From Variovorax sp. WDL1 (lineage in GTDB: Bacteria > Pseudomonadota > Gammaproteobacteria > Burkholderiales > Burkholderiaceae_C), in the NCBI RefSeq assembly GCF_001541225.1, contig NZ_LMTS01000026.1, forward strand, positions 3,504-67,503: 64,000 nt of DNA, written 5' to 3'. The notes below the pieces were generated by a model. That model was not told the DNA's origin, did no database searches, and worked only from the letters and a program-made list of their open reading frames with translations. How positions within the stretch are numbered: position 1 is the first letter of the stretch; every line of letters begins with the position of its first letter. Position numbers and translations under genes: made by a program. Of this stretch, positions 34,295 to 35,652 are shown piece by piece.

Positions 34295-34771
34295 ATGACA
34301 CTCACCGCTCCCTCTCTGCTCCTTCTTGCACTGGCCTTTGCGGGCATCGCCTTTCTTGGCGAGTACGTGGCGCTGGCTCAAATGCGGCGTTGCGCCTTCA
34401 GTTCCGTCCCGCTCGTGCGTACAGCACGCCGCGCGCTGTACCCAGCTCTGCTGGCTTGCGCTGGCTTCTTGCTCTACGCAGGTTCAGTCAACTTCCGGCT
34501 GACTGTTGTCTCAATGGCCATCGGAACGTTCGTGGGCTGCATCATTGCCCTTCCCTCGTTGTCGCGGGGCTTGCTGTATCAGCCGACGATGCGCCTCATC
34601 GCGCCTGTGATGCTGGTCTTCGTCGTGGGCAGCCATATCGATGGGGTAGGCGCGGCCCCGACGCTGGAACTGGGCTTGCTCCCAGCCCTATCGACCCTGC
34701 TGGTGTGCGGCCTGCTCTGGCTCATCGCGGAATACCGGCATCACCAGGACATGGAGCGCCTTCGGGACTGA
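34295..34771 (+). CDS. integral membrane protein
   Basis: The product is 158 residues with four to five membrane segments (about 5-27, 45-65, 70-90, 102-118 and 128-145) joined by short loops with arginines (QMRRCAF, LVRTARRAL). No family recognised. A strong terminator follows. Confidence 0.55.
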   Translation: MTLTAPSLLLLALAFAGIAFLGEYVALAQMRRCAFSSVPLVRTARRALYPALLACAGFLLYAGSVNFRLTVVSMAIGTFVGCIIALPSLSRGLLYQPTMRLIAPVMLVFVVGSHIDGVGAAPTLELGLLPALSTLLVCGLLWLIAEYRHHQDMERLRD

Positions 34772-34807: not shown

Positions 34808-34836
34808 AGCCGCCCTTCCCCGGGCGGCTATTCTTT
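34808..34836 (+). terminator. Rho-independent terminator
   Basis: AGCCGCCC pairs with GGGCGGCT, followed by ATTCTTTT; it isolates the mini-ORF unit from upstream transcription. Confidence 0.8.
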
Positions 34837-34892
34837 TGGGCTACCGGGTACGCACCAGTGGCCCGGGAGCAGGTAAATCGCACGTCGCCATC

Positions 34893-34899
34893 GCTATAC
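34893..34899 (+). promoter_or_regulatory. GCTATAC box before the mini-ORF cluster
   Basis: This matches the shared leader element and lies 30 bases before the first mini-ORF; a likely -10 element for the cluster. Confidence 0.45.
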
Positions 34900-34928
34900 G
34901 TCGCATCAAGCAACCCAAGGAGGTGACC

Positions 34929-34964
34929 ATGCGCAAGCAAAACGGCGGCGGCAGCGGCTGCTAG
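34929..34964 (+). CDS. mini-ORF 1 (11 codons)
   Basis: AAGGAGG stands five bases before the ATG. The peptide would be MRKQNGGGSGC, ending in cysteine before TAG. It is the first of three tandem mini-ORFs in one short transcription unit. Too short for ORF finders; the near-ideal ribosome-binding site is the main support. Confidence 0.5.
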   Translation: MRKQNGGGSGC

Positions 34965-35021
34965 GCCAAACCCAACTCCATCGCCCCTTCACGGGCTCAA
35001 CTGCATATTAAGGAGGTCTCG

Positions 35022-35057
35022 ATGCGCAAGCTGCACGACGGTGACGGATTCGCATGA
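35022..35057 (+). CDS. mini-ORF 2 (11 codons)
   Basis: AAGGAGG stands five bases before the ATG. The peptide would be MRKLHDGDGFA. The first three residues equal those of mini-ORF 1, which argues that the two are related. Confidence 0.5.
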   Translation: MRKLHDGDGFA

Positions 35058-35097
35058 ATCCGCGCCACCTGCCCTGCAACCAACCAAGGAGTGCTTC

Positions 35098-35127
35098 ATG
35101 CGAACTGAAGGCTACGGCCTAGGCTGA
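35098..35127 (+). CDS. mini-ORF 3 (9 codons)
   Basis: AAGGAG stands six bases before the ATG. The peptide would be MRTEGYGLG, ending seven bases before a terminator stem. Like the other two it begins MR and is glycine-rich. Confidence 0.45.
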   Translation: MRTEGYGLG

Positions 35128-35134
35128 TTCCAAG

Positions 35135-35160
35135 CCCCCGCTATCCGGCGGGGGTTTCTT
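35135..35160 (+). terminator. Rho-independent terminator of the mini-ORF unit
   Basis: CCCCCGC pairs with GCGGGGG, followed by TTTCTTCTT. With the upstream terminator it frames the mini-ORFs as one short RNA of about 260 bases. Confidence 0.85.
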
Positions 35161-35237
35161 CTTGCCGGGAGCCCCTAGCTTTGGCCCTATCAGGCCTATA
35201 CGGGACTGCTAGGCACGGGCGGCGCGCATCAGGCATC

Positions 35238-35244
35238 GCTAGAC
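35238..35244 (+). promoter_or_regulatory. GCTAGAC leader box
   Basis: Lies 34 bases before the ATG at 35278 with AAAGGA between; part of the shared leader set. Confidence 0.4.
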
Positions 35245-35277
35245 GAATCAGACCATTGACCACAAAGGACCTGAAGC

Positions 35278-35652
35278 ATGACCATCAACTCCTGGACCAA
35301 CCTGCCCGACCCCTGCGAAGCGCCGCCGGCCGCGGTGAGCTACCGCACCTTGTTTGACGTAACTGGCGACGAGAAGGATAAGGACACACTCCTTGTGCCG
35401 CGCGAGGAGCTGCCGCCGTCGCCTGTCCTTGCCCGTGACGCTGTGCTTGAAGAAGCCGGGGCGCTCTGTGACCAGGTTGCGCTGGAGTACGGAGGCGTCG
35501 CGAGGAGCAAGTTCGCCACGGAGTTCGGCAAGCAAATCCACCAAGCCATGGCGAACGGCGCGCACAACGCAGGCACCCGTATTCGCGCGGCGCTCTCGAC
35601 TGCCCCCAAAGCCTCACCCTCGGACGAGCCCGAGTTCATTGAAATCGGCTAG
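35278..35652 (+). CDS. unknown small protein
   Basis: The product is 124 residues, soluble, with a helix-rich centre (PVLARDAVLEEAGALCDQVA) and an acidic tail. It is monocistronic, with its own leader box; no clear terminator, though an imperfect GC-rich hairpin lies at about 35665-35695. No family recognised. Confidence 0.55.
   Translation: MTINSWTNLPDPCEAPPAAVSYRTLFDVTGDEKDKDTLLVPREELPPSPVLARDAVLEEAGALCDQVALEYGGVARSKFATEFGKQIHQAMANGAHNAGTRIRAALSTAPKASPSDEPEFIEIG

Follow-up and report, generated by a model that had tools for sequence, protein, structure and literature searches.

On the ∼800 kb megaplasmid of linuron-degrading Variovorax, three mini-ORFs with near-consensus ribosome-binding sites follow one another in a 506 bp gap that separates annotated genes. 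We suggest, with a probability of roughly 0.4, that they form a short autonomous plasmid gene: a three-cistron mRNA whose micro-peptides are the product. Judged from the sequence, the unit appears to have its own promoter and terminator, and it is set apart from both neighbouring genes. In the proposed mechanism, a plasmid-type promoter would start the RNA near position 34905 of the window (the whole stretch of 64,000 nucleotides that was analysed), the RNA of about 259 nt would end at the terminator at 35163 and ribosomes would load independently at the three Shine–Dalgarno sites to give micro-peptides of 11, 11 and 9 residues. We infer that the unit is probably transcribed and translated; what matters may be the peptides themselves and not the act of translating them.

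The preceding gene (34295–34771) is followed by an intrinsic terminator at 34808–34839, consisting of an 8 bp stem with seven G–C pairs and then ATTCTTTTGG. The GCTATACG promoter box of the unit lies at 34893–34900 (GCTATAC at 34893–34899) and carries a CTANAC motif 35 nt before ORF1; the predicted transcription start, placed by the A conserved at position 11 of the motif, is at about A34905. Ribosome-binding site 1 (AAGGAGG, 34917–34923) precedes mini-ORF 1 (34929–34964; MRKQNGGGSGC, 11 codons, stop TAG), site 2 (AAGGAGG, 35010–35016) precedes mini-ORF 2 (35022–35057; MRKLHDGDGFA, 11 codons, stop TGA) and site 3 (AAGGAG, 35086–35091) precedes mini-ORF 3 (35098–35127; MRTEGYGLG, nine codons, stop TGA). 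In each case exactly 6 nt separate AAGGAG from ATG, giving the pattern AAGGAG-N6-ATGCG three times, and the ATG of ORF1 and ORF2 stands 5 nt from AAGGAGG. The terminator of the unit (35132–35163) is a strong hairpin that folds as an 11 bp stem with seven G–C pairs, followed by CTTCTT; it is absent from the list of a simple terminator scan, probably because the stem runs into the T run. The following gene has its own CTAGACGA promoter box at 35239–35246, 39 nt before its start at 35278. All of these features are on the forward strand. No ORF of 60 or more amino acids lies wholly inside 34941–35247, and a tRNA search found none. An earlier note on this DNA had described three ORFs of 11, 11 and 9 codons with AAGGAG(G) at five or six bases, and their coordinates and spacing were confirmed by direct reading and by script. 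The promoter-to-terminator unit that it proposed is also supported, with the GCTATAC box belonging to a plasmid-enriched motif and a terminator on either side.

All three peptides start with Met-Arg, as had been pointed out; the description of them as glycine-rich fits ORF1 (4/11) and ORF3 (3/9), and ORF2 (2/11) less so. ORF2 and ORF3 have one aromatic residue each and ORF1 has none. The peptides contain no hydrophobic or signal segment, which makes an intracellular role likelier than secretion or a membrane toxin. A type I toxin, which would require a hydrophobic membrane-spanning peptide, gains no support from the neighbouring genes or from the sequences, the three peptides being short and polar. 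The first two copies match at 78% over a stretch of 32 nt that starts at 35010 in copy 2, and the likeness of copy 3 extends over 19 nt at 74%, so that duplication of the start region is likely. What the copies have in common is mainly AAGGAG-6-ATGCG, and the remainder of the ORFs differs. A 42-codon frame (34836–34964, forward strand) that ends in ORF1 contains SGPGAGKSHVAIAI, which is Walker A-like. We attribute this to chance and reject a P-loop remnant of a decayed gene, as the frame crosses the upstream terminator and had no Pfam matches; against the PDB it gave no match better than E 0.38 (sulfite oxidases), and elsewhere than on the plasmid a single 41% match at E 8.

Within the window, AAGGAG-N3..9-ATG occurs six times, compared with 2.07 ± 1.26 in shuffled sequence, and three of the six are these mini-ORFs. 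The 800 kb plasmid holds, on both strands together, 12 mini-ORFs of 5–20 codons that start 4–8 nt after AAGGAG; three of them are here, with their starts spanning 169 bp. A fourth-order Markov simulation (24 Mb in 20 kb pieces, both strands) produced 265 such mini-ORFs, or 8.8 per 800 kb, and two of them within 250 bp on one strand never occurred in the 24 Mb. The arrangement of the three mini-ORFs is thus not chance, as the earlier note had held.

Ribosome-binding strength was compared with that of 87 of the 88 annotated genes in a 90 kb stretch of the Variovorax PBL-H6 plasmid, using duplex energies against what we take to be the 16S tail. The duplexes of ORF1 (−12.7 kcal/mol) and ORF2 (−12.8 kcal/mol) are stronger than those of all 87 genes, while that of ORF3 (−8.0 kcal/mol) is above 80 of the 87, with seven as strong, which bears out the claim that the sites are better than those of most genes. 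AAGGAG sites were found in only four of the 87. The opening energies of the start regions are 10.6, 10.0 and 7.4 kcal/mol for ORF1, ORF2 and ORF3, and 53, 48 and 27 of 86 genes, respectively, are as open or more so. With medians of 9.2 kcal/mol for genes and 14.6 kcal/mol for 300 random positions, the mini-ORF start regions open about as easily as gene starts do, and more easily than random positions.

GCTATAC of the unit is a member of a plasmid motif, CTANAC, that is enriched 30–45 nt before starts. Among 6-mers with the fourth letter free, searched 28–48 nt upstream of ATG-started ORFs of 150 or more amino acids, CTANAC had the largest excess (98 ORFs versus six in a control region further upstream). 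The stricter form T-N-[GC]-CTANAC-[GC]-N4-A-purine-purine occurs 58 times, and 53 of these sit 20–60 nt ahead of an ORF of 60 or more amino acids; 17 of the 87 annotated genes have CTANAC 26–49 nt before the start. Set against 400 kb of chromosome from the same genome, the box proves specific to the plasmid: the 30–39 nt bin contains 65 occurrences for 1262 ORFs on the plasmid versus two for 926 ORFs on the chromosome (both ORF sets include spurious frames), and total counts are 623 and 140. Of the 623 plasmid sites, 130 precede a Shine–Dalgarno-led ORF of at least 40 amino acids and four precede a mini-ORF only; that of the unit is the one among these four with AAGGAG. The promoter match of the unit is middling, in the lower part of the range: of 119 training sites, 90 reach or exceed its score of 13.4, as do 84 of 504 other CTANAC sites. 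Genes 35278, 35781 and 36615 have their own boxes 39, 36 and 37 nt before the start. The box of the unit, together with those of the following genes, gives the unit the look of a gene and speaks against an attenuator. As seen plasmid-wide, the motif reads TnGCTAnACG-N4-AGGA, with examples in the window at 34894, 35239, 35745 and 36578. No −35 element was seen in the motif column counts, and a generic σ70 scan found no promoter at the unit. Neither σ70 region 2 nor RpoB was found on the PBL-H6 plasmid; in a search for a single-subunit polymerase that might read the plasmid promoter no control matched.

The unit and its flanks are 100% identical in four PLSDB plasmid records (Variovorax PBL-H6, PBL-E5, SRS16 and WDL1; 801–839 kb each), none of which has an annotated feature under the unit. 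A 286 bp query of the unit matched at full length and 100% in three of 101 Variovorax genomes, its own included; the remaining 98 gave short matches, the best of 46 bits. There were no matches to phage records. The flanking genes 34295 and 35278 and the next gene, 35781, had matches in the same four plasmid records only; gene 35278 is present in three of the 101 Variovorax genomes, and gene 35781 in one of 200 sampled genomes of the order, its own. A Pfam search of eight neighbouring genes left most without a known family. Among the records searched, the unit is therefore known from one plasmid lineage only, and identity of 100% within one such lineage carries no information on constraint.

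No diverged copy of the unit was found in the collections searched (for GTDB contigs, among the matches listed), and hence there is no sign of selection on the peptides, which counts against the micro-peptide reading. Four loci with short BLAST matches in other Variovorax genomes were read and had no Shine–Dalgarno-led mini-ORF at the match. A scan for two consecutive sites gave 45 places in 38 of 399 genomes of an order sample, versus about 38 reversed control matches; in the 31 of the 45 places that were read, two mini-ORFs in a row occurred at the own locus only, the second start being sought only 4–8 nt after the second AAGGAG. The same scan of a family sample gave 19 places in 18 of 399 genomes, versus four for a control pattern; all 19 were read, and only the own locus had two ORFs of 30 amino acids or fewer. 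The two-site pattern yielded at least 80 stretches in GTDB contigs and 15 in viral contigs. The script had 97 matches in 94 of the 95 listed GTDB and viral loci (none in L116), and 14 of these listed loci contained two ORFs of 30 amino acids or fewer in a row. Ten were looked at further and, among the matches listed, arrays repeating one peptide of five or more residues were found only in six actinobacterial loci. In a Lachnospiraceae bin (L070) there are two ORFs, each beginning MRPE. More closely spaced runs of three consecutive sites were found in 19 viral stretches, mostly low-complexity coding repeats; two short ORFs in succession occur in two of them (L263 and L275), and none of those read (n = 19, of which L265 gave nothing) has three ATG-started ORFs of 30 amino acids or fewer. 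The exact Shine–Dalgarno–start pattern of copies 1 and 2 did not occur in viral contigs. A search of the entire PBL-H6 plasmid and of eight further burkholderial plasmids in full gave the known unit and one other place, which is the start of a long-looking coding sequence. No paper on this unit was among those listed by a literature search.

The strongest rival, although an unlikely one, is that the transcript is a translated regulatory RNA or ribosome decoy in which the strong sites matter and the peptide sequences do not; the sites would load ribosomes, protect the RNA or pair through AAGGAGG with a C-rich RNA. This would suit copies that share mainly AAGGAG-6-ATGCG and differ in the rest of the ORFs, and the predicted fold of the unit is slightly more stable than those of shuffled sequences (z = −1.84, seven of 200 shuffles equally good). 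A start codon at an exact distance and a prompt stop, three times over, nevertheless exceed what an anti-Shine–Dalgarno decoy needs, and no Rfam family fits: the whole window had no matches at the gathering threshold, and a relaxed search of 601 bases gave three matches far below threshold, so that a known Rfam RNA was rejected. Rather doubtful is a functionless remnant, in which a strong start region was duplicated between genes, possibly as what is left of a lost gene. The 78% likeness of copies 1 and 2, the adjoining genes without known family and the lack of anything similar in the other genomes sampled favour it, but AAGGAG is rare among genes (4/87), and three intact in-register AAGGAG/ATGCG sites with a promoter box and a terminator would be hard to keep without selection.

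Leader-peptide attenuators of the trpL type have a mini-ORF and then a terminator, and the terminator between the mini-ORFs and the same-strand gene at 35278 resembles this. The earlier note had named leader peptides as a candidate; as leaders for that gene they are not supported, because the gene has its own CTAGACGA box beyond the terminator; the mini-ORFs also differ from trpL-type leaders in having no run of regulatory codons, and we consider such control quite improbable, the question of an anti-terminator having been covered by one minimum-energy fold. Precursor minigenes of a modified peptide (RiPP) of the biarylitide kind, to which MR starts, tiny ORFs with their own ribosome-binding sites and a single Cys might point, are less credible still: there is no conserved core, and the aromatic residues number one in each of two peptides and none in the third. 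The proposal of signal or modified peptides likewise lost ground, as no maturation enzyme is annotated nearby or was found by Pfam among the eight neighbours, which are mostly of unknown family. We give almost no weight to a sponge RNA for CsrA/RsmA with repeated GGA motifs; four GGA motifs are present in the RNA, but CsrA (PF02599) had no matches in the own genome (a draft of 351 contigs), in a search that matched three of 14 control genomes.

The three-cistron micro-peptide mRNA remains our preferred, if tentative, reading. A more specific version, to which we attach little weight, is a micro-operon in which three distinct co-expressed peptides of 9–11 residues, under the private promoter class of the plasmid, would act jointly on the host or its ribosomes in favour of the plasmid. 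If translated, the unit would be a polycistronic gene for peptides below the reach of annotation pipelines, and promoter context and ribosome-binding strength would be shown to be able to find such genes. The plasmid-specific promoter motif offers a means of seeking more of them and prompts one to ask what polymerase or factor recognizes CTANAC promoters.

The nearest published case of multi-copy minigenes that we found is the biarylitide precursor bytA, which is reported to encode a five-residue precursor in 18 bp and to be at times multi-copy, with up to six copies in a Lysinibacillus strain (PMC13417212). The likeness lies in very small genes that sometimes occur in several copies; biarylitide precursors have an aromatic core and belong to P450 pathways, whereas the Variovorax unit encodes three different peptides and no modifying enzyme was recognized. 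According to a second source, many sRNAs have multiple ORFs (PMC5521070), and such peptide-encoding small RNAs resemble the predicted Variovorax transcript in being short with small ORFs. Compared with an example given there, whose ORFs overlap, the three separate ORFs, each with a near-consensus site, form a more ordered arrangement.

The nearest thing found in sequence, among the matches listed, is the set of actinobacterial arrays, which share head-to-tail minigenes, many of them MR-starting and, with few exceptions, each preceded by a site of the AGGAG type, at spacings of mostly 60–192 nt. The arrays repeat one peptide, whereas the three Variovorax peptides are not copies of one another, a difference that counts against the micro-peptide reading.

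These arrays (L068, L087, L113, L102, L126 and L131) consist of 2–16 minigenes with one peptide of 5–7 residues repeated. Three Actinokineospora loci have seven, 11 and 16 M(R)SRDW-type minigenes, with a few deviating copies (e.g. MSSRDW and MSRDR), Actinocatenispora has ten of MREHNWS, a Streptosporangiaceae bin has two of MRGDSWG and a Nocardiopsis bin has two of MRGEQWT. The Actinokineospora copies vary by synonymous codons, start codon and stop codon, and such variation is what selection on a peptide would be expected to look like; as the Variovorax unit has no comparable variation, the claim for it is kept modest. By Pfam, an MFS-transporter ORF is present in L113, L126 and L131 (with a homologous ORF in L068) and a GGDEF ORF in L087, L126 and L102 (with a homologous ORF in L113). 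A literature search with four of the array peptide strings found no paper, and the arrays may represent a peptide family, not yet described, with links to c-di-GMP genes.

The PBL-H6 plasmid between 334433 and 370632 carries ImuA with a Y-family polymerase, an error-prone DNA polymerase, a type I-E CRISPR–Cas set, a protein annotated as DpdB, and genes for pantetheine-phosphate adenylyltransferase and dephospho-CoA kinase, which is an odd mix for a plasmid. An ungapped comparison of positions 1–50000 of the window with this plasmid gave 14,619 mismatches, the register being lost somewhere in the stretch; since the gene coordinates of the two still match around the unit, an indel between them is likely.
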